NCBI GenBank assembly: GCA_031081585.1 | Contig: JAVHLY010000024.1 | Location: 1-47,447 of the forward strand | Source: Armatimonadota bacterium | Lineage (GTDB): Bacteria; Sysuimicrobiota; Sysuimicrobiia; Sysuimicrobiales; Humicultoraceae | DNA length: 47,447 nt | Direction: 5' to 3' | In this document: positions 25,635 through 35,775 of the stretch, piece by piece | Position numbering within the stretch: the stretch's first letter is position 1 | Layout: every line of letters starts with the position of its first letter | Made by a program: the position numbers and the translations under genes | The notes under the pieces: model-generated | Seen by the model: the letters and a program-made list of their open reading frames with translations, nothing else | Database searches by the model: none | What the model was told of the DNA's origin: nothing

Positions 25635-26216
25635 GTGCTCACGGGCCTGCACACCGCCCTCGTCCGCCGGGCTCTGCTGCCACTGCGGGAACGGCACCGG
25701 GGAAATTCCACCTTCCACCGCCTTTGCTCCCTGCTGGCCTCCCAGTGGTGGCCGCCGGAACGCATCAGGGACGCGCAGCTGCTCCGCCTGCGGGCGCTCG
25801 TGGCGCGGGCAGCGGAGGCCCCGTACTACCGGGACCGCCTGCGCCAGGCCAGCGTGCGACCGGAGGACCTCAGGCAGGTGGAGGACCTGGCGGCGCTCCC
25901 CCTGTTGGAGAAAGCGGTCCTGCGGGAGCGACCGGATACCCTCAGCCCCCGGGGGCCGGATGGCGGCACCCGCCGCCGTCGCACAAGCGGCTCGACCGGT
26001 GTGCCCGTGGAGGTGTGGGTGCCCGCGGACGGCTGGGTGGCTGCCGCGCGCCTCATGCGCCTCGACTGGCGAGGGCAGGCCCGGGGCCCCGTGGCCCTCC
26101 TGCTCGACTGGGACCCCCATGACCCCCTCGCCGGCTGGTGCGCTCCCGGCCGCCTGCGCGTCGAGGGAACCCGGCTGGTGCGGCTGCGCACGCGGAGGGC
26201 GGGTCGCGGCGTATAA
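25635..26216 (+). pseudogene. Truncated PaaK/CapK-like adenylate-forming protein (N-terminal third)
   Basis: A frame of 193 residues resembling the start of phenylacetate-CoA ligase/CapK-family proteins (usually ~430-470 residues): helical N-terminus with VARAAEAPYYRDRLR, LAALPLLEKAVLRE and the AMP-binding loop TSGSTGVPVEVW. It stops at a TAA just after the first third, so most of the adenylation domain is absent and it is probably not an active ligase. The TAA is part of the prfA -10 box (GTATAATCG), as if the end of the gene was lost when the prfA region joined it. GTG at 25635 is the likely start; nothing is recognisable in 25426-25634. A genuine short protein cannot be excluded. Confidence 0.55.
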
Positions 26217-26217
26217 T
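26212..26217 (+). promoter_or_regulatory. -10 box for leaderless prfA transcript
   Basis: A perfect TATAAT lies 7 bases before the prfA ATG (26225). Transcription should begin at or within a base of the A of ATG, giving a leaderless mRNA; no Shine-Dalgarno is present between them. The box overlaps the TAA of the truncated upstream gene. No -35 consensus is seen. Confidence 0.65.
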
Positions 26218-26224
26218 CGAAAAG

Positions 26225-27301
26225 ATGCTCGACCAGACCGTCATCAACAGGCTGGAGGCGCTGCAGGCGCGCTACGAGGAGCTCACCGCGCTGCTGGCCG
26301 ACCCGGCGATCCTGGCGGCACCGGAGCGGTACCAGCAGGTGGCCCGGGAGCATGCGTCCCTCGAGGCCACCGTGGCCCTCTACCGGCGGTGGCGCCGCCT
26401 CCAGGAGGAGGCCCGCGAGGCGCGGAGCCTGGCCCGCGAGGAGGCCGACCCGGAGCTGCGGGCCCTGGCGATCGGCGAGGCGGAGCGGCTCGAGGCCGAG
26501 GCCCGCGGGCTGGAAGACGCCCTGCGCCAGGCCCTCCTGCCCCCCGACCCGCACGCGCACCGGGACATCATCGTGGAGATCCGCGCCGGGGCCGGCGGAG
26601 AGGAGGCGGCCCTCTTCGCCGGCGACCTCTTCCGCATGTACAGCCGCTACGCCGAGCGGCGCGGCTGGCAGGTGGAGGTCCTGGAGGCCAGCCCCACGGG
26701 ACTCGGCGGCTTCAAGGAGGTCGTCTTCGCGGTGAAGGGGCGCGGGGCCTACAGCCGACTGCGCTTCGAGAGCGGCGTTCACCGGGTCCAGCGGGTGCCG
26801 GTGACCGAGGCGGCGGGGCGCATCCACACCTCCACCGCCACGGTGGCGGTGCTGCCGGAGGCCGAGGAGGTGGACGTCCGGCTCCGACCCGAGGACCTAG
26901 AGGTCGAGACCTTCCGCGCCGGGGGGGCCGGCGGGCAGAACGTGAACAAGGTGGAGACCGCCGTGCGCGTCCGCCACCGCCCCACCGGCATCGTCGTGGC
27001 CTGCCAGGACGAGCGCTCCCAGTTCCAGAATCGGGAGAAGGCGCTGCGCATCCTGCGCGCCCACCTCCTGGAGCGCGCCCGGCGGGAGCAGCACGAGGCC
27101 ATCGCCCGCCAGCGCCGGCTGCAGGTGGGCACCGGGGAGCGCAGCGAGAAGATCCGCACCTACAACTTCCCCCAGAACCGGGTCACCGACCACCGCATCG
27201 GCCTCTCCCTGCACCGCCTGGAGAGCGTCCTCGACGGCGACCTGGACGAGCTGATCGACGCCCTGGCCGCCGCCGACCGCGCCGCCGCCCTGGCCTCCTG
27301 A
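26225..27301 (+). CDS. prfA: Peptide chain release factor 1
   Basis: A 358-residue class I release factor recognising UAA and UAG. It has the RF1-type anticodon tripeptide PVT (in [18 protein letters not shown]) where RF2 has SPF, and the catalytic G236-G237-Q238 in [11 protein letters not shown], which is methylated by PrmC, the next gene. Length is normal. If UGA is read as selenocysteine in the arsC gene (see 32196), the competing factor would be RF2, not this protein. The start is set by the -10 box 7 bases upstream. Confidence 0.98.
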
Positions 27302-27308
27302 CCGGGCA

Positions 27309-28187
27309 GTGCCACCGCCCCGCTCCGTCCGGGAGGCCTGGGCGATGGGCCGCGAGCACCTCCTGGCCGTCGGGGTGGAGGCGGCCGGGCTGGAGGCCGA
27401 GGTCCTGCTACGCCACGCCCTGCAGGTTTCCCGCACCGACCTGTACCGCGCCTGGGAGGCGCCGGTGGAGGCGGCGCAGTGGGAGCGCTACCGGGCGCTG
27501 CTGGAGGCGCGCGCCCAGGGCCGTCCCGTCCCCTACCTGACCGGCCGGCGGGAGTTCATGGGGCTGGAGCTCGCGGTCGACGAGCGCGTCCTCATCCCCC
27601 GTCCGGAGACCGAGGTGCTGGTGGAGGCGCTGCTGCACGTGCTGGCCGACCACCCCGCTCCCCGTGTGCTGGATGTGGGCACCGGCAGCGGCGCCATCGC
27701 GCTGGCCCTGGCCCACTTCCTGCCGCGCGCCCGGGTGCTGGCCACGGACGTCTCCGCGGCGGCGCTGGAGGTGGCGGCGGCCAACGCGCGGCGCCTGGGC
27801 CTGGCCGACCGGGTCGCCTTCGCCCGGGTCGACCTGCTCGGGGCGATCGGCCCGGCCGAGCGCGCCCGGTTCGACGCCGTGGCCAGCAACCCCCCTTACG
27901 TCGATCCAGACCTGGCGCGGCATCTGCCCCGGGAAATCGCCGACTACGAGCCCCGTCTGGCCGTCGTCGACCCCGGGGGCGGAACCACCTTCCACCGTCG
28001 GCTGGCCGAGGAGGCGCCGCACGTGCTGCGGCCCGGTGGGTGGCTCGCCGTGGAGGTGGCGGCAGGCCAGGCCCCCGCCGTCATCGAACTCTTCGCCCAG
28101 ACCGGCGGCTACCAGGAGATCCGCACGGTGCGCGATCTGCTCGGCATCGAACGGGTGGTGATCGCCCGCCGCGCCAACAACCCATGA
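27309..28187 (+). CDS. prmC: Release factor glutamine methyltransferase
   Basis: A 292-residue SAM-dependent enzyme that methylates the Gln of the GGQ motif in RF1 and RF2. The N-terminal helical domain contains GRPVPYLTGRREFMGL; motif I is VLDVGTGSGAIAL and the catalytic motif is N194-P-P-Y197 (ASNPPYVDP). The GTG at 27309 lies 7 bases after prfA. Its stop overlaps the ATG of the next gene as ATGA, so prfA-prmC-tsaC-rpiB is tightly coupled. Confidence 0.97.
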   Translation: MPPPRSVREAWAMGREHLLAVGVEAAGLEAEVLLRHALQVSRTDLYRAWEAPVEAAQWERYRALLEARAQGRPVPYLTGRREFMGLELAVDERVLIPRPETEVLVEALLHVLADHPAPRVLDVGTGSGAIALALAHFLPRARVLATDVSAAALEVAAANARRLGLADRVAFARVDLLGAIGPAERARFDAVASNPPYVDPDLARHLPREIADYEPRLAVVDPGGGTTFHRRLAEEAPHVLRPGGWLAVEVAAGQAPAVIELFAQTGGYQEIRTVRDLLGIERVVIARRANNP

Positions 28188-28876
28188 GCACCGCGGAGTC
28201 GTTATACGCGCTGTCCTTCCGCCCGGCGGTCCGGCACGTCCCCCGCCCCCTCGTGATCATCAACGTGCGGGGCACGCCGGACCCGCCGCGCCGGGCCGTG
28301 CGCCTCATCCAGGAGGGCGGGCTGCTGGCCTACCCCACCGATACCGCCTACGGGCTGGGGTGCGACATCTCCAACGCGGCGGCGGTGCGGCGCGTCTTCG
28401 AGGTGAAGCGCCGGCCGCTGGACGAGCCGCTGCCGGTGCTGGTGGCGGAGGTGGCGCAGGCGTGGACGCTGGCGGCCAGCCGGCCGCCCCTCGCCGAGCG
28501 GCTGGCGGCCCGCTTCTGGCCCGGGGCGCTCACGCTGGTGCTGCCGCGCGGCCGCCGCGTCCCGGCCCTCGTGGCCGGTGGCGGGGAGACGGTGGCCCTG
28601 CGCGTCCCGGACCACCCCATCCCGCGCAACCTGGTCCGCCTGGCGGGCGTCCCCATCGTGGGGACCAGTGCCAACCTCCACGGCGACCCCACCCCGACGC
28701 GCGCCGAGCACGTCGTCTTCAGCCTGGGGGACCGCATCGACATGCTGCTGGACGGCGGCCCCACCCCGCGGGGCCGAGAGTCGACCATCGTCGACCTCAC
28801 CGAAGACCCGCCCCGGGTGCTGCGGGAGGGGGCGATCCCGCGCCGGGCGGTGGAGGAGGCGCTGGGGTGGCCATGA
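28184..28876 (+). CDS. tsaC: Threonylcarbamoyl-AMP synthase (Sua5/YwlC/YrdC family)
   Basis: A 230-residue YrdC-domain protein that makes threonylcarbamoyl-AMP for the t6A modification of ANN-decoding tRNAs. Signatures are LLAYPTDTAYGLGCD, KRRPLDEPLPVLV, FWPGALTLVL, VALRVPDHP and GTSANLHGDPTPT. The C-terminal RESTIVDLTEDPPRVLREGAI segment is typical, but the extra Sua5 domain (~100 residues) is absent, so it is the short form. The N-terminus has about 30 residues before the core. It overlaps prmC and rpiB as ATGA on both sides; the same order prmC-ywlC-ywlF is known in Bacillus. Confidence 0.95.
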   Translation: MSTAESLYALSFRPAVRHVPRPLVIINVRGTPDPPRRAVRLIQEGGLLAYPTDTAYGLGCDISNAAAVRRVFEVKRRPLDEPLPVLVAEVAQAWTLAASRPPLAERLAARFWPGALTLVLPRGRRVPALVAGGGETVALRVPDHPIPRNLVRLAGVPIVGTSANLHGDPTPTRAEHVVFSLGDRIDMLLDGGPTPRGRESTIVDLTEDPPRVLREGAIPRRAVEEALGWP

Positions 28877-29319
28877 GGATCGCCCTGGCCAGCGACCACG
28901 CCGGACTCGCCCTCAAGACCCAGGTGCGGCGCCTGGTCGAGGCCTGGGGGCACGAGGTCATCGACTTCGGCACCTTCGACGACGAGCCGGTGGACTACCC
29001 CGACGTGGTCCTGCCGGCGGCGCGCGCGGTGGCCAGCGGGGAGGCGGACCGGGCCATCGTCGTGGGCGGCTCTGGGAACGGCGAGGCCATGGCGGCGAAC
29101 AAGGTGCGGGGGATCCGGGCGGCGCTGTGCCACGACGTCACCACGGCGCGGCTGAGCCGCCAGCACAACGACGCCAACGTGCTGGCGCTGGGGGCGCGCA
29201 TCGTCGGCCCGGAGGTGGCCACCGACGTGGTGCGCACCTGGCTGGAGACGCCCTACGAGGGCGGCCGCCACGTCCGCCGCCTGGAGAAGCTGCACGCGGC
29301 CGAGCGGGAGGGGGGCTGA
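28873..29319 (+). CDS. rpiB: Ribose-5-phosphate isomerase B
   Basis: A 148-residue RpiB/LacAB-fold enzyme interconverting ribose 5-phosphate and ribulose 5-phosphate. MRIALASDHAGLALK, the phosphate-binding GGSGNGEAMAANKV and RQHNDANVLALGARIVG are diagnostic. The usual catalytic Cys in GTGxG is replaced here (VVGGSGNGEAM). The Ser at that loop and the RQHNDANV segment occur in actinobacterial RpiB, which uses a glutamate instead, so this protein is of the Glu-type class. The start overlaps the tsaC stop. Confidence 0.94.
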   Translation: MRIALASDHAGLALKTQVRRLVEAWGHEVIDFGTFDDEPVDYPDVVLPAARAVASGEADRAIVVGGSGNGEAMAANKVRGIRAALCHDVTTARLSRQHNDANVLALGARIVGPEVATDVVRTWLETPYEGGRHVRRLEKLHAAEREGG

Positions 29320-29322
29320 CTC

Positions 29323-29952
29323 GTGCGCAAGGTCCACGTCTTCGACCACCCGCTGATCCTGCACAAGGTGACGATCCTGCGGGACCGGCGGACGGGCCAC
29401 AAGGAGTTCCGCGAGCTGGTGGAGGAGCTGGCCATGCTCATGGCCTACGAGGCCACGCGCACCCACCCGGTCCGCCAGCTCGAGGTGGAGACGCCGCTGG
29501 CCGTGGCCAAGGGCTACACCATCGCCGGCCAGGAGCTGGCGCTGGTGCCGATCCTGCGGGCGGGCCTGGCCATGGAGGCGGGGATCAGCCGGCTCATCCC
29601 CACGGCGCACGTCGGGCACGTCGGCATCTTCCGCGACCCGGCCACCCTCCAGCCGCACCGCTACTACGCCAAGCTGCCCCAGGACATCGCCGAGCGCACC
29701 GCGCTCGTCCTCGACCCGATGCTGGCCACCGGCGGCTCCACGGTGGCCTGCGTGGACATCCTCAAGGCGGCGGGGTGCCGGTCCATCCAGGTCATGGCCA
29801 TCATCTCGGCGCCCGAGGGGATCCGGCGGGTCCACGACGCCCACCCCGACGTGGAGATCTTCACCGCCGCCGTGGACGACTACCTGAACGACCACGGCTA
29901 CATCGTGCCGGGGCTCGGCGACGCCGGCGACCGGCTCTACGGGACGAGGTAG
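29323..29952 (+). CDS. upp: Uracil phosphoribosyltransferase
   Basis: A 209-residue salvage enzyme making UMP from uracil and [17 protein letters not shown], the PRPP loop [13 protein letters not shown] and the uracil-binding [16 protein letters not shown] end are canonical. GTG start at 29323, 3 bases after rpiB; the following deaminase begins 6 bases later. The rpiB-upp order is the Bacillus one. Confidence 0.97.
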
Positions 29953-29958
29953 CGTCCC

Positions 29959-30441
29959 GTGGCGGCGCCGCCGTCGCCCCGGCCCAGCTGGGACGCCTAC
30001 TTCATGCGCATGGCGCACCTGGCCGCCACGCGCTCCACCTGCCTGCGGCGCCGCGTGGGCGCGGTCATCGTGAAGGACAACATGGTCCTCTCCACGGGCT
30101 ACAACGATACCCCGCGGGGGCTGCCCAACTGCGGCGAGGGCGGGTGTGCGCGGTGCGCCGGGGACGCGCCGTCCGGCAGCGCCCACGACACCTGCCTCTG
30201 CCTACACGCCGAGATGAACAGCGTGATCCAGGCCGCCTACCACGGCATCGCCATCGCCGGGGCGACGGTCTACTCCACCACCCTGCCCTGCCTCACCTGC
30301 GCCAAGATCCTGCTCAACGCGGGGATCGCGCGGATCGTCTTCGAGGGGCACTACCCGGACCCGCTGGCCCTGGAGGTCCTCACCCGCGCCCGCGTCGACC
30401 TGGTGCGCTACGCCGGGGAGGAGGTCACGCCGCTGGGCTGA
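29959..30441 (+). CDS. dCMP deaminase (ComEB-like)
   Basis: A 160-residue zinc-dependent deaminase that turns dCMP into dUMP for thymidylate synthesis. The active site is H83-A-E85 with C111-x2-C114 (PCLTCAK). The additional Cys cluster C58, C63, C66 (NCGEGGCARC) is the second zinc site of the ComEB/T4 dCMP deaminase group, which distinguishes it from cytidine or guanine deaminases. It closes the plus-strand cluster that begins at prfA. Confidence 0.93.
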   Translation: MAAPPSPRPSWDAYFMRMAHLAATRSTCLRRRVGAVIVKDNMVLSTGYNDTPRGLPNCGEGGCARCAGDAPSGSAHDTCLCLHAEMNSVIQAAYHGIAIAGATVYSTTLPCLTCAKILLNAGIARIVFEGHYPDPLALEVLTRARVDLVRYAGEEVTPLG

Positions 30442-30457
30442 CGCGCCCCATGGGCAC

Positions 30458-30488
30458 GCCCGGGGCGGGGGTGCACGTCCGCCCGGGC
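30458..30488. terminator. Hairpin between convergent dCMP deaminase and Pit genes
   Basis: GCCCGGG-G-CGG (30458-30468) pairs with CCGCCCGGGC (30479-30488) with a single bulged G, giving 10 pairs. It lies between the two stop codons. There is no U-tract, so Rho-assisted or bidirectional 3'-end formation is the best guess. Confidence 0.4.
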
Positions 30489-30492
30489 CTCC

Positions 30493-31488
30493 CTACAGGA
30501 TCCAGCGCAGCAGGTAGGTCACCAGCGCGCCGATGAGCGCGCAGGCCGGGAAGGTCAGGACCCAGGCGGTGACGATCTCCGCCCCCACCCCCCACCGCAC
30601 CGCCGAGAGCCGGCGGGTGGCCCCCACGCCCATGATCGCCGTGTTGATGGTGTGGGTGGTGCTGACGGGGATCCCCACGTGGGCGGCCAGGGTGATCAGC
30701 GTCGCCGCGGCGGTCTCGGCCGCGAACCCCTGGTAGGGCTCCAGCTTCGTCAGCCGCAGCCCCATGGTGTGGACGATCCGCCACCCGCCCACCGCGGTGC
30801 CCAGCCCCATGGTGACGGCGATGACGGCGATCACCCATAGCGGGATGTGGAACTCCGGCAGCACCCCGCCCAGCACCAGGGCCAGGGTGAAGACCCCCAT
30901 GAACTTCTGCCCGTCGCCGGTGCCGTGGCTGAAGGCCATGAAGGCGGCGGAGAGGATCTGGAGACGGCCGAAGAGGCGGCGCACCGTGCCGAGCGGCACC
31001 CGCCGGAACCCCCAGGCGATGGCCAGCATGAGGAGGAAGCCGCCGGCGAAGCCCAGGAAGGTGGAGATGCCCAGGCCCTGCACCGTCTTCACCCACCCGC
31101 TGGCCTCCAGCGCCGCCGTGCCGCCGGTGGCGAACCCGGCCCCGGTGAGCGCCGCCACCAGCGCGTGGCTCTCGCTGGTGGGCAGGCCGCGCAGCCAGGC
31201 CAGCGTGCTCCACAGCACGATGGCCACCATGGCCGCGGCCACGGTGACCGTGTCCACGACGCGGGCGTCCACGAACCCCCGGCCGATGGTGATGGCCACG
31301 GCGGTCCCGCTGAGCGCCCCGACGAAGTTGAGCACGGCGGCCATGATCACCGCGACCCCGGGGGAGAGGACGCGGGTGGAGACCACGGTGGCGATGGCGT
31401 TGGGCGCATCGGTCCACCCGTTCACGAACTCCGCGGCCAGCACCAGCAGCAGGACGGGGATGAGGCCGAGCGGCAGGTGGAGCTCCAC
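30493..31488 (-). CDS. Pit-family low-affinity inorganic phosphate transporter
   Basis: A 331-residue inner-membrane transporter with about 10 helices. The two inverted PiT signatures are GWTDAPNAIATVVSTRVL near the N-terminus and GIPVSTTHTINTAIMGVG near the C-terminus, with SHGTGDGQKFMG in the middle. Pit proteins import metal-phosphate and also admit arsenate, which is relevant to the arsenate reductase divergent from this pair. GTG start at 31488. The DUF47 protein gene, its usual partner, is 16 bases upstream on the same strand. Confidence 0.93.
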   Translation of the reverse strand: MELHLPLGLIPVLLLVLAAEFVNGWTDAPNAIATVVSTRVLSPGVAVIMAAVLNFVGALSGTAVAITIGRGFVDARVVDTVTVAAAMVAIVLWSTLAWLRGLPTSESHALVAALTGAGFATGGTAALEASGWVKTVQGLGISTFLGFAGGFLLMLAIAWGFRRVPLGTVRRLFGRLQILSAAFMAFSHGTGDGQKFMGVFTLALVLGGVLPEFHIPLWVIAVIAVTMGLGTAVGGWRIVHTMGLRLTKLEPYQGFAAETAAATLITLAAHVGIPVSTTHTINTAIMGVGATRRLSAVRWGVGAEIVTAWVLTFPACALIGALVTYLLRWIL

Positions 31489-31504
31489 GGGCGGACGGCC
31501 CGCG

Positions 31505-32119
31505 CTACGTCCGCTTGGCCCGGATACCCGCCAGCACGTCGGCCACGTCCTCGGCCTGGTCGGTGGCGCGCTCGAGGGTCTCGTAGATGTCCTTCCACTT
31601 GATGACCTCGAGGGGCTGGCCGTTCTCGGCGAAGAGGCGGGCGATGGCCTCGCGGTAGACGTGGTCGGCCAGGTTCTCCAGGCGGTGGATCTCCTCGAGC
31701 TGCCCCTCGACGCGGTCGAGCCGGCGCAGGTTCCGCACGGCCTCGACCATGGCCTCGGCCATGTGCACGATGATGTGCGCCAGCTCCACCGCCGCCGGTG
31801 TGGGCTGGGTCACGCGGTAGTCCACCAGGCGGGCGGCCACCGCCTCGATCCAGTCGATGACGTTGTCCAGCTGGCGGGCCAGCGCGTGGATGTCCTCGCG
31901 GTCCAGCGGGGTGATGAAGGTGCGGTTGAGGCGATCCGTGATCTGGTGGATGATCTCGTCGCCCCGCTCCTCCGTCGCCTTGATGGCCGCCGCCTGTTCG
32001 GGGACCCGCTCGTAGCGCTCCAGCATGGCCTTGAGCAGGCGCGCCGCCTGCAGGATGTTCTCAGCGGCCTGCGCGAACAGGGCGAAGAAGACCTCCTCGC
32101 GCGGCAAGAGTCCGACCAT
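31505..32119 (-). CDS. DUF47-family Pit accessory protein
   Basis: A 204-residue all-helical cytoplasmic protein of the DUF47/PhoU-like family: AENILQAARLLKAML, EERGDEIIHQITDRLNRTFITPLDREDIHALARQLDNVID and KWKDIYETLERATDQAEDVADVL. These proteins are almost always next to a Pit gene and are thought to modulate it. The ATG at 32119 has AGGAGGG just upstream and begins the family's N-terminus; the frame stays open to 32701 only as a shadow of the divergent gene. Confidence 0.93.
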   Translation of the reverse strand: MVGLLPREEVFFALFAQAAENILQAARLLKAMLERYERVPEQAAAIKATEERGDEIIHQITDRLNRTFITPLDREDIHALARQLDNVIDWIEAVAARLVDYRVTQPTPAAVELAHIIVHMAEAMVEAVRNLRRLDRVEGQLEEIHRLENLADHVYREAIARLFAENGQPLEVIKWKDIYETLERATDQAEDVADVLAGIRAKRT

Positions 32120-32158
32120 GGCGCCCTCCTTCCGGACCTCTCCCCAAGGTTCCACAGG

Positions 32159-32192
32159 GTTGAGAGCCTTCCTCTCGCCCACTATGCTCAAC
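32159..32192 (+). promoter_or_regulatory. Promoter and nested dyads of the arsC gene
   Basis: TTGAGA (32160-32165), 17 bases, TATGCT (32183-32188): the best-spaced -35/-10 pair in the window. The predicted start, 7-8 bases past the -10, coincides with the ATG at 32196, so the mRNA is leaderless; an upstream in-frame ATG at 32184 lies inside the -10 and cannot be used. GTTGAG (32159-32164) and CTCAAC (32187-32192) form an inverted repeat around the promoter, and GAGAG-N5-CTCTC (32162-32176) is nested inside. Such dyads are good operator candidates, but they do not look like a standard ArsR site. Confidence 0.65.
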
Positions 32193-32195
32193 GCC

Positions 32196-32594
32196 ATGAA
32201 GACCGTCCTGTTCGTCTGAGTGGGCAACACGGCCCGCTCCCAGATGGCGGAGGCGCTCTTCAACGCCGATCCGCCGCCGGGGTGGCGGGCGCGCTCCGCG
32301 GGCACGGAGCCGAAACCTGCCCTGCGGCCCGAGGCCGTCGCCGTCATGCGGGAGGTGGGGGTGGACATCTCCGCGCAGCGTCCCAAGGCGCTGAGCGAGG
32401 CGCTGGGTCCCGACGTGGCGCTGGTCGTGGGCCTCTGTGTGGAAGAGGCCTGCCCGGTGGTTCCGGGGGCGCGGTCCCTGCACTGGCCCCTGCCCGACCC
32501 GCGGCCGGGGGACCTGGACCACATGCGCGAGCTGCGGGACGAGTTGCGTCGGCGCATCGCCGCCCTGCGCGCGGCCCTGGAGGATCGGGTATAA
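32196..32594 (+). CDS. arsC: Predicted selenocysteine-containing arsenate reductase (thioredoxin-coupled ArsC, LMW-PTP fold)
   Basis: Reads as 132 residues if the in-frame TGA at 32217-32219 (codon 8) encodes selenocysteine: MKTVLFV-U-VGNTARSQMAEAL. The P-loop is normally Cys-x5-Arg; here U8 takes the Cys place and R14 is kept. Downstream the whole family pattern is intact: SAGTEPKP, VDIS, the redox cysteines C81 (VVGLC) and C86 (ACPVVP), HWPLPDP with D101, and the C-terminal helix. These match the Cys10/Cys82/Cys89 relay of thioredoxin-coupled ArsC from plasmid pI258, which reduces arsenate to arsenite. A 6-bp hairpin with one bulge at 32235-32255 is a possible SECIS. A pseudogene or sequencing error is the alternative, but a stop exactly at the catalytic Cys with no other damage is hard to explain by chance. 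Confidence 0.8.
32235..32255 (+). promoter_or_regulatory. Candidate bacterial SECIS hairpin after the arsC UGA
   Basis: CGCUCC (32235-32240) pairs with GGAGGCG (32249-32255) with one bulged G, closing the 8-base loop CAGAUGGC; a further C-G pair leaves loop AGAUG. The loop lies about 22 bases after the UGA, within the range usual for bacterial SECIS elements, and has a G among its first two bases. A competing hairpin, GUGGGC-AACACG-GCCCGC (32220-32237), directly abuts the UGA. SelB recognition differs among lineages, so this is tentative. Confidence 0.4.
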
Positions 32595-32595
32595 T
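32590..32595 (+). promoter_or_regulatory. -10 box of rplY/ctc
   Basis: A perfect TATAAT overlapping the arsC stop codon (TAA at 32592-32594). Start of transcription near 32602 gives a ~53-base leader with GAGGTGGAGGG before the rplY ATG. No -35 consensus is evident. Confidence 0.55.
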
Positions 32596-32654
32596 GACGC
32601 GCGGCCGGCCCACGGGCCGGCGTCATCGTCCGGCGGCGAGGTGGAGGGACGGTC

Positions 32655-33308
32655 ATGGAACGCGTCGGCCTGCAGGCGCAGGTGCGGGACGGGGTCGGCA
32701 AGACGGCGGCGCGCCGCGTGCGGCGGCGGGGGTGGGTGCCGGGCGTGCTCTACGGGCGCGGGGTGGAGGCCACGCCCGTGGCCGTGGAGGCGCGGGCGCT
32801 GCGCGACGCGCTGCACGGGCATGGGATGAACGTCCTGATCGACCTGGCCCTGCGCCGCAACGGCAGCGAGGAGACGCGGGTCGTGGTCGTCAAGGACCTG
32901 CAGCGCGACACCTTCACCCACGCGATCATCCATGTGGACTTCCAGGCCATCTCCCTGGAGGAGACGCTGGAGGCCCACGTGCCGCTGGTCCTGGTGGGCA
33001 CGCCGCGCGGCGTGGTGGAGGGCGGCGTGCTGGAGCAGCACCTGCGCGAGGTCCTGGTGGAGGCGCTGCCCACCGCGGTCCCCGAGCAGCTCACCGTGGA
33101 CGTCAGCGAGCTGGCGGTCGGGCAGGTGCTGCACGCCGGGGACCTGACGATGCCGGAGGGGGTCACCCTCCGCACCCCCGCGGACGAGGTCGTGGCCACC
33201 GTGCTGCCGCCGCGGGTGGAGGAGGCGCCTCCCGCTGCGGCGCCGGCCGAGGCCCCGGCGGCTCCGGCCGCCCCGGGCCCGGCCAGGGAGGAGGGCCAGG
33301 GGAGCTGA
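32655..33308 (+). CDS. rplY: 50S ribosomal protein L25, general stress protein Ctc type
   Basis: A 217-residue two-domain L25 (TL5/Ctc form) that binds 5S rRNA. N-terminal L25 domain (~5-92: GKTAARRVRRRGWVPGVLYG, HAIIHVDFQAI), C-terminal TL5 beta domain (~98-188: VPLVLVGTPRGVVEGG, DVSELAVGQVLHAGDL), then an Ala/Pro-rich tail. The long form is typical of Bacillus, Thermus and relatives, not of the short E. coli L25. It is followed 12 bases later by pth, the usual ctc-pth pair. Confidence 0.95.
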   Translation: MERVGLQAQVRDGVGKTAARRVRRRGWVPGVLYGRGVEATPVAVEARALRDALHGHGMNVLIDLALRRNGSEETRVVVVKDLQRDTFTHAIIHVDFQAISLEETLEAHVPLVLVGTPRGVVEGGVLEQHLREVLVEALPTAVPEQLTVDVSELAVGQVLHAGDLTMPEGVTLRTPADEVVATVLPPRVEEAPPAAAPAEAPAAPAAPGPAREEGQGS

Positions 33309-33320
33309 CCGGCCCGGGCC

Positions 33321-33893
33321 GTGAAGCTCGTGCTCGGGCTGGGGAACCCGGGGCGGCGCTACCAGGGCACGCGGCACAACGTGGGGGCGGCCGTGGTGGA
33401 GCGCCTGGCCCGGCGCCACGGGGTCGCCCTGCGCGAAGAGGGGTGGGCGCACACCGCGGCGATCCGCGTGCAGGGGCAGCGGGCGCTGCTGGCCCGGCCC
33501 GACACCTTTGTGAACCTGAGCGGGACCGTTGCCGCCGACCTGTGCCGCCGCCACCACGTGGCGCCGGCCGACCTGCTGGTGGTGGTGGACGACCTCGACC
33601 TGCCGCTGGGGCAGCTGCGGCTGCGGCCGCACGGCGGGCACGGCGGGCACAACGGATTGCGCTCGATCATCGAGGCGCTCGCCAGCGAGGGCTTCCCCCG
33701 GCTGCGCATCGGCATCGGGCGGCCGCCCGCCGGAGTCGATCCCGCTGACTACGTCCTGGAGCGGTTCAGCGCGGAGGAGCGACCGGTGGTGGAGGAGACG
33801 CTGGAGCGGGCGGCCGACGCCGCCGAGCGGTTCGTCGCGGCGGGCATCGAGGCGGCCATGAACGCCTTCAACGTGAGGAGGACGGTGCCGTGA
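33321..33893 (+). CDS. pth: Peptidyl-tRNA hydrolase
   Basis: A 190-residue enzyme that recycles tRNA from prematurely released peptidyl-tRNA. N9 and H19 (GLGNPGRRYQGTRHNVG), LARPDTFVNLSG, the VVVDDLDLPLGQLRLR strand and GGHGGHNGLRSI match the active-site set (N10, H20, D93, N114 in E. coli). GTG start at 33321. Its stop overlaps the next gene's GTG as GTGA. Confidence 0.96.
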   Translation: MKLVLGLGNPGRRYQGTRHNVGAAVVERLARRHGVALREEGWAHTAAIRVQGQRALLARPDTFVNLSGTVAADLCRRHHVAPADLLVVVDDLDLPLGQLRLRPHGGHGGHNGLRSIIEALASEGFPRLRIGIGRPPAGVDPADYVLERFSAEERPVVEETLERAADAAERFVAAGIEAAMNAFNVRRTVP

Positions 33894-34483
33894 CCACGCG
33901 GTCCACCGAGGCGGCGCGCCGGCGCGTCCCGCCCGGGCAGTACGTGACGGAGAAGTGGCCGGTCCTGCACTACGGCAGCGTCCCCCGCTTCGATGCGGCC
34001 ACCTGGCGCTTCCGCGTCTACGGCCTGGTCGCCGAGCCGCTGGAGTTCACCTACGAGGCCTTCCGCGCCCTCCCCCGCACCACGCTCACCTGCGACGTCC
34101 ACTGTGTGACGGCCTGGAGCAAGCTCGACATGGTCTTCGAGGGGGTCCCGGCCCGCGTGGTGCTGGAGCGGGCCCGGCCGCTGGCGGAGGCCCGCTTCGT
34201 CATGGTGCACGCCGAGCAGGGCTACGAGACCAACCTGCCGCTGGAGGTCCTGCTGGGTGACGACGCCCTCTTCGCCTGGCGCGCCAACGGGGCCGACCTG
34301 ACGCCGGAGCACGGGTGGCCGCTGCGGCTGGTCGTCCCCCGCCTCTACTTCTGGAAGAGCGCGAAGTGGGTGCGCGCCCTCGAGGTCCTGGCCACCGACC
34401 GCAGGGGCTTCTGGGAGCGTAACGGCTACCACAACCGCGCCGACCCCTGGCGGGAGGAGCGGTACGCCTCGCCCTGGGAGTGA
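33890..34483 (+). CDS. YedY/sulfite-oxidase-family molybdopterin protein
   Basis: A 197-residue protein of the oxidoreductase molybdopterin-binding family. The segment TCDVHCVTAWSKLD corresponds to the Moco-cysteine loop of YedY/MsrP (C-V-x-A-W-S), so C72 is the likely molybdenum ligand and C68 an extra cysteine. VHAEQGYETNLPL and WPLRLVVPRLYFWKSAKWVRALEV complete the fold. There is no signal peptide, unlike periplasmic MsrP, so it appears cytosolic. Short stand-alone versions are common in Gram-positive-related and archaeal genomes; the substrate is unknown. It is translationally coupled to pth and to the following MFS gene. Confidence 0.88.
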   Translation: MTTRSTEAARRRVPPGQYVTEKWPVLHYGSVPRFDAATWRFRVYGLVAEPLEFTYEAFRALPRTTLTCDVHCVTAWSKLDMVFEGVPARVVLERARPLAEARFVMVHAEQGYETNLPLEVLLGDDALFAWRANGADLTPEHGWPLRLVVPRLYFWKSAKWVRALEVLATDRRGFWERNGYHNRADPWREERYASPWE

Positions 34484-35775
34484 GGGCCGGGCGTTCCTCC
34501 ACGACCGGCGTCGTGGCCGACGACGGCGTCCTCGTCCCGGCCGAGGCCGCCCCCCGCACCGTCGACCGGCTGCCGGGCCGCACGCTCGCCCCGCTGCGCC
34601 ACCGCAACTACCGGCTGCTCTGGACCGGGCTGGTCGTCTCCAACACCGGGACGTGGATGCAGTTCACCGCCATCGGCTACCTGGTGGACCAGCTCACCCT
34701 CTCGCCGATCTACCTGGGCTACCTGGGGCTGGCCCAGGGGATCCCCCGCGTCCTCTTCGCCTTCGTGGGCGGCGTCGTGGCCGACCGGGGCGACCGGCGG
34801 CGGGTGCTGCTCCTGACCAACCTGGTGGCGATGGCCTCGGCGACGCTGCTGGCGGTCCTCACCTACCTCGACCTCATCCGCGTCTGGCACCTGCTGGTCA
34901 TCGGGGCGTTCAACTCCTTCGTCCACGCCTTCGACATGCCGGCGCGCCAGTCCATGACCCCGGCGCTCGTCGGCGAGGCGGACCTCCTCCAGGCGGTCAG
35001 CCTGAACTCCGTGGCCTTCAACGGCGCCGGCATCTTCGGGCCCGCGCTGGGCGGGCTGGTCATCAGCCTGGTGGGCACCCACGGCGCCTTCGCCCTCAAC
35101 GCCGCCTCCTACCTGGCCGTGCTGTGGGCGCTGCTGGCCATGCGGGTGCCGCCCGCCGCGGACGCCACGCGCGTCCCCATCGGGGAGGACATCCGGGAGG
35201 GGCTGGCGCTGCTGTGGCGGCAGCGGACGGTGCTCACCGTGCTGGCGCTCGTCGCCGTGGTGAGCTTCTTTGGCCGCCCCTATATCCGGCTCATGCCCAC
35301 GGTGGCGCGCGAGGTGCAGCAGGTGGGGCCGCGCGGGCTGGGGATCCTGCAGGCCGCGCCGGGGCTGGGCACGGTGCTGGCCGCCGTCCTCATCGGGTGG
35401 AGCGTGGGCCGCCTGCCGGCGGGGAGCCTGATGCTGGGCGCGGCCGGGGCGATGGGCCTGCTGGTGGCGCTCTTCGGCCTCTCCCACTCGTTCCCCCTCT
35501 CCGTCGCCCTGCTGGTGGGGGTGGGGGTGAGCCAGTCGGCGGCGCTGGCCACGGCCAACACGCTGATCCAGCGCACGGTGCCGCCCGGCGCGCGCGGGCG
35601 GGCCATGGGGATCTTCAGCATGGTGGCCTTCGGCATGATGGCTTTCGGGACGCTGCCGGCCGGGGCGGTAGCGGAGGCGATTACGCTGCCCTGGACCTTT
35701 GCGCTGTGGGGGCTGGTCATCGTCGTCGTGGTGCTGCTCATGGCCCTGCTGGCCCCCGCGGTGCGCGCCCTGTAG
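34480..35775 (+). CDS. MFS transporter, MFS_3/EntS-like exporter
   Basis: A 431-residue 12-helix carrier. A polar N-terminus (~1-40) precedes LRHRNYRLLWTGLVVSNTGTWMQ, the standard opening of this family. DRGDRRRVLL is the loop-2 motif, and FDMPARQSMTPALVGEADLLQAVSLNS is very characteristic of EntS-like exporters. The substrate cannot be read from sequence. The GTG at 34480 overlaps the preceding stop (GTGA); a later in-frame GTG at 34513 would trim the polar N-terminus. Confidence 0.9.
   Translation: MRAGRSSTTGVVADDGVLVPAEAAPRTVDRLPGRTLAPLRHRNYRLLWTGLVVSNTGTWMQFTAIGYLVDQLTLSPIYLGYLGLAQGIPRVLFAFVGGVVADRGDRRRVLLLTNLVAMASATLLAVLTYLDLIRVWHLLVIGAFNSFVHAFDMPARQSMTPALVGEADLLQAVSLNSVAFNGAGIFGPALGGLVISLVGTHGAFALNAASYLAVLWALLAMRVPPAADATRVPIGEDIREGLALLWRQRTVLTVLALVAVVSFFGRPYIRLMPTVAREVQQVGPRGLGILQAAPGLGTVLAAVLIGWSVGRLPAGSLMLGAAGAMGLLVALFGLSHSFPLSVALLVGVGVSQSAALATANTLIQRTVPPGARGRAMGIFSMVAFGMMAFGTLPAGAVAEAITLPWTFALWGLVIVVVVLLMALLAPAVRAL

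Follow-up and report, generated by a model that had tools for sequence, protein, structure and literature searches.

Does the TGA that interrupts an arsenate reductase gene at the codon of its catalytic nucleophile end translation, or does it encode selenocysteine (Sec)? The gene, arsC, lies in a stretch of 47,447 nucleotides (the window) from the genome denoted G000. A sequence-only reading of the window had proposed a selenoenzyme, with coordinates, frame and residue numbers for ArsC that all prove exact. The frame comprises 133 codons, and its sole interruption is the TGA at 32217–32219 (Table 1).

Recurrence of the TGA in the phylum

Our sample of the phylum consists of 43 genomes, all from one order. 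A TGA occupies exactly codon 8 of arsC in 15 of these, spread over three families, and the 15 genes (Sec-arsC below, with Sec-ArsC as the predicted products) contain no other internal stop. The orthologues are down to 63% identical to the G000 protein, and the C81/C86 pair is intact in every one. In a survey of 134 aligned matches, in which the Sec loci were entered twice, codon 8 is TGC in 63, TGT in 40 and TGA in 29 cases, with 2 not covered; every TGA comes from one of the 15 genomes, and distant ArsC relatives have TGC or TGT at this position. The earlier claim that the TGA replaces the codon of the P-loop nucleophile is borne out by this alignment of orthologues, which had been suggested as a check. 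A wider survey of 386 genomes revealed no further codon-8 TGA among the matches listed, and a scan of genome contigs for relatives gave Cys forms only among the 80 matches listed. A genome outside the phylum (G090) was flagged for one TGA and rejected, since it has TGC at the catalytic site and the flagged TGA merely ends the gene as its natural stop. A tree of 109 proteins groups the Sec forms in one clade (support 99/93), which fits a single change between Cys and Sec, in either direction.

Fold and active-site residues of the predicted protein

With the TGA translated as U, the gene product reads MKTVLFV-U8-VGNTARSQMAEA...GLC81VEEAC86PV...PLPDP...V, followed by the stop. Strand beta-1, the P-loop, the C81/C86 redox pair and the DP motif can all be recognized in this protein (MKTVLFVUVGNTARSQ...GLCVEEACPVVPGARSLHWPLPDP...). 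When C is put in place of U, its only Pfam match is PF01451 (LMWPc), at 71.2 bits against a gathering threshold of 23.2 (Pfam), and no glutaredoxin/Spx-fold domain (PF03960) is detected. The nearest solved structures by sequence are those of S. aureus pI258 ArsC. Modelled by AlphaFold, the Cys stand-in reaches a pLDDT of 93.4, and in the PDB matches of this model arsenate reductases fill the top ranks, with LMW-PTPs appearing only after them.

Table 1. Features of the Sec-arsC locus (positions in the window)
Feature	Positions	Strand	Description and basis
Pit/PHO4 phosphate transporter gene	30493..31488	-	Pfam PF01384
DUF47/PhoU_div gene	31505..32119	-	Divergent, 76 bases upstream of arsC; Pfam PF01865
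Sec-ArsC gene	32196..32594	+	Predicted 132-residue LMWPc-fold arsenate reductase, TAA stop; Pfam, PDB matches, 15 TGA orthologues
In-frame TGA, predicted Sec8	32217..32219	+	Nucleophile position of the P-loop, corresponding to Cys10 in pI258 ArsC; codon survey, Cys10/82/89 mechanism (PMC2714181)
Remaining P-loop, VGNTARSQ	32220..32243	+	N11, A13, R14 and S15 invariant across the Sec clade
Candidate bacterial SECIS hairpin	32246..32267	+	GGCG/CGCC + GAGG/CUUC, AA bulge; loop begins about 33–34 nt past the TGA; no covariation
C81 codon	32436..32438	+	Predicted first resolving cysteine; invariant among aligned Sec forms
C86 codon	32451..32453	+	Predicted second resolving cysteine (C-x4-C); sequence alignment

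The sequence-only reading held that every family feature is present apart from the nucleophile. The G000 copy has the P-loop, C81/C86 and the general acid D101, which precedes the Pro of the DP motif, but the statement was too strong in two respects. Against the thioredoxin-ArsC equivalog TIGR02691 the protein reaches 78.7 bits, under the curated cut-off of 174.3 bits (NCBIfam), and is therefore not filed as a thioredoxin-ArsC equivalog; the Cys relatives tested against this model likewise fall under the cut-off. Furthermore, 6 of the 14 readable Sec forms have N or G in place of the general acid, as compared with none of the 86 readable Cys forms, each of which has D. Either Sec relaxes the need for this Asp, or the activity differs. 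Asn or Gly at position 101 is found in L016, L024, L025, L026, L027 and L028, i.e., in Sec forms only and apparently on more than one branch.

Gene neighbourhood and the likely substrate

Phosphate-uptake genes adjoin Sec-arsC, or lie within about 2.5 kb of it, in 13 of the 15 genomes. The divergent DUF47-Pit pair is found beside the gene in G000, G001, G002 and G005, and near it in G004, where a pyrophosphatase gene adjoins. G008 and G009 feature the string pstS-C-A-B-phoU-arsC-pyrophosphatase, and the genomes of family f2 have PstB/PhoU or a PstS-type protein nearby. Arsenate is taken up into cells via phosphate carriers, so the placement of Sec-arsC fits arsenate detoxification, although it would fit a phosphatase too. 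As for the wider surroundings, a housekeeping run (prfA-prmC-...-upp-dCMP deaminase) in the window is followed by pit-DUF47, arsC, L25 and pth (26216–35775), and the gene run around arsC is kept in G001 and partly in G005. An aldo/keto reductase gene is located beside Sec-arsC in several f2 genomes (L133, L135, L137 and L138), and its product is a possible functional partner.

Because phosphate-uptake and pyrophosphatase neighbours suit phosphate as well as arsenate, Sec could be inserted into an enzyme that is a seleno-phosphatase, or some other redox enzyme of phosphate metabolism. PF01451 includes phosphatases, and the score below the thioredoxin-ArsC cut-off, the variation of the general acid among the Sec forms, and the failure to find an Acr3 or ArsB arsenite exporter in G000 would also agree with such an assignment. 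We nevertheless consider it unlikely. The invariant C81 and C86 correspond to the ArsC redox pair, the closest structures and family models are arsenate reductases, and Sec is typical of redox enzymes; the loss of the general acid, moreover, would harm a phosphatase too. Provided that Sec is inserted, reduction of arsenate is quite probably the reaction of the enzyme, as judged from these comparisons.

Decoding of the TGA

The components that Sec insertion would call for, and which the sequence-only reading had proposed to search for, are all encoded in the source genome. The genes for SelA, SelB and tRNA-Sec are clustered on contig 8 of G000, and the anticodon of the tRNA is UCA (TCA in DNA), as confirmed by ARAGORN. 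The selD gene (L045, G000:C23:826-1752, - strand) contains an in-frame TGA of its own in the motif VACAG-U-ASKLSP, which is a known Sec site, and this TGA is also present in selD of most genomes of the phylum. selA was detected in 13 of the 15 Sec-arsC genomes. The other two are G005, which is 69% complete, and G017, which is 93% complete and has a TGA-bearing selD, and where we found no convincing selA. In genus g19 of family f4, two genomes (G027 and G030) give selD matches with one in-frame TGA and have the Cys form of ArsC. None of the four genomes of this genus gave a selA match, perhaps because selA is being lost, has diverged or lies on contigs that are missing.

A hairpin compatible with a SECIS element follows the TGA, with the sequence GGCGGAGG-CGCU-CUUC-AA-CGCC. 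The loop spacing of 33–34 nt is within the 16–37 nt range of the published bSECIS model (PMC13188914). It is also like the spacing in selD of the phylum, where the hairpins are conserved and the loop (GUC/GUU) is placed 32–33 nt past the TGA in most. The pairing is kept in 94% of cells versus 27–49% for slid versions, and the choice among synonymous codons slightly favours the stem (synonymous-null p about 0.001–0.02, a post hoc value since the hairpin was picked after inspection). F22-N23 is invariant in the Sec clade, and the Cys forms mostly have A/L-R there. No covariation or compensatory change is present across the Sec-arsC alignment. A contiguous-stem bSECIS scan was rejected as a discriminator because the separation was poor, with any match in 15 of 15 Sec versus 70 of 83 Cys genes, and with matches at an energy of at most -3 in 12 of 15 versus 39 of 83. 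Rfam gave no SECIS in the window and none in the selD control, and can therefore not decide the matter. With a hairpin chosen post hoc, no covariation, and bSECIS matches common in Cys genes, the support for a SECIS is weak.

Before the TGA of arsC, mean pN is 0.21 and pS 0.54, and after it the values are 0.23 and 0.54, i.e., selection is purifying and alike on either side, from which it follows that both sides are read. Furthermore, the seven codons 5′ of the TGA are kept as the family strand beta-1 in all 15 genes. These observations bear on the possibility that the TGA is a true stop, leaving a pseudogene, or a truncated protein made from the GTG at 32220 or from the ATG of M17. A GTG codon directly 3′ of the TGA and the weak SECIS evidence could be taken to favour a stop of this kind. 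However, neither the conserved upstream codons nor the similar pN and pS would be expected, no copy has another stop, a downstream start would produce a protein devoid of the catalytic nucleophile, and the genome has the Sec machinery; we regard a true stop as very improbable. The earlier argument against decay is upheld by the same similarity in pN and pS and by the lack of other stops, and the relatives that share the TGA show no decay downstream of it.

That the TGA is read as another residue (by a code change or Trp/Cys readthrough), or is an assembly error, has found no support and can be dismissed, since TGA terminates the window genes for PrfA, PrmC, dCMP deaminase, L25, Pth and a SUOX-like protein as well as nine of the 14 Sec-arsC genes that are complete and is thus not reassigned, the identical base recurs in 15 separate assemblies, which makes sequencing error an unreasonable explanation, and a dedicated tRNA-Sec with anticodon UCA is encoded. 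Taken with the similar selection on both sides, the use of TGA as an ordinary stop leaves code change, decay and sequencing error as poor explanations. The machinery, the TGA in 15 genomes and the purifying selection on both sides lend strong support to the selenoenzyme reading, and insertion of Sec at codon 8 of ArsC appears highly probable.

Proposed catalytic mechanism and relation to arsenic methylation

Comparative sequence evidence thus covers the conserved TGA, the Sec machinery, the fold, the cysteines and the gene context, and from it we infer insertion of Sec in vivo, arsenate as substrate and the order of the relay described below. The combined reading, in which the TGA is decoded as Sec by the host SelA, SelB, SelD and tRNA-Sec, and the product is an LMW-phosphatase-fold arsenate reductase whose nucleophile is a selenolate, is in our judgement likely. 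In characterised ArsC, Cys10 attacks arsenate, Cys82 and Cys89 form a disulfide, and thioredoxin reduces the enzyme (PMC2714181). Based on homology to these Cys10/Cys82/Cys89 enzymes, a corresponding relay of U8, C81 and C86 can be proposed. Sec8 would attack arsenate that arrives through the phosphate transporters, whereupon C81 would attack the arseno-Sec adduct so that arsenite is released and a Sec8-C81 selenenylsulfide forms. C86 would then resolve the selenenylsulfide to give a C81-C86 disulfide, and thioredoxin or a similar reductant would regenerate the enzyme.

G000 has ArsM-type enzymes that may go on to methylate the arsenite, and one of them is itself a predicted selenoprotein. The gene for this ArsM-like methyltransferase (L184:2149-2979, + strand, G000:C17) carries a TGA in frame within the motif WAG-U-ISGALAE, and at least eight further genomes of the phylum have it too. 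The protein scores 232.8 bits against a curated ArsM cut-off of 263, and WAG-U-ISG conforms to UxxG, the motif by which the established Sec-ArsM family is listed. With both a TGA-bearing ArsM-type gene and Sec-arsC in G000, a selenium-based route of reduction and methylation is possible. Such a pairing is not obligatory, because several genomes have Sec-ArsM without Sec-ArsC.

Comparison with known arsenate reductases and selenoproteins

Like the thioredoxin-coupled ArsC of the pI258/B. subtilis type (PF01451, TIGR02691), the predicted Sec-ArsC has the same fold (TM about 0.8), a P-loop, a redox Cys pair and, in the G000 copy, the DP motif. It differs in that the nucleophile would be Sec from a TGA, in the spacing of the redox pair (C-x4-C as compared with C-x6-C), in its position below the equivalog cut-off, and in the general acid, which varies within the Sec clade. 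The LMW protein tyrosine/arginine phosphatases Wzb and YwlE have the superfamily fold and the P-loop in common with Sec-ArsC, but lack the C81/C86 redox pair and use Cys as nucleophile.

The sequence-only reading had mentioned reports of Sec forms of ArsC-like proteins. Selenoproteins annotated as arsenate reductases have indeed been published (PMC2398784, PMC9312934, PMC13188914), but they are different proteins. Two catalogues of prokaryotic selenoproteins, from 2022 and 2026, the latter with 119 families (PMC13188914), include no arsenate reductases other than TIGR00014 (UxxS) and NF041106 (UxxC) (PMC9312934, PMC13188914), and these (PF03960/COG1393) have the unrelated glutaredoxin/Spx (thioredoxin-like) fold, another motif and another chemistry. 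Neither catalogue contains a PF01451/COG0394 protein, text searches of the open-licence literature turned up no article on a Sec variant of the PF01451 fold, and there is no selenoprotein model among the matches in NCBIfam 20.0. Since the published Sec arsenate reductases have a different fold, we judge the G000 protein to represent a new selenoprotein family and not a repeat. Sec-ArsM (NF008823, UxxG) is, like Sec-ArsC, a selenoprotein of arsenic detoxification and has the TGA-bearing relative in G000 described above, but it is a methyltransferase that acts at another step.

A more far-reaching proposal, which we hold to be about evenly balanced, is that Sec-ArsC is the first selenoprotein family on the LMW-PTP fold, a selenolate arsenate reductase fixed in one phylum that takes part, with Sec-ArsM, in a selenium-dependent arsenic detoxification linked to phosphate uptake, and in which the selenolate perhaps relaxes the need for the general-acid Asp. 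Most described selenoproteins have thioredoxin-like or metallo-redox scaffolds (PMC13188914). If the proposal holds, Sec as the nucleophile of a phosphatase-type P-loop would unite phosphoryl/arsenyl transfer with selenolate redox chemistry, and the natural Sec and Cys homologues allow the two nucleophiles to be compared directly. Automated annotation likely cuts the Sec-arsC genes at the TGA, and arsenate resistance would then be under-called in this phylum.
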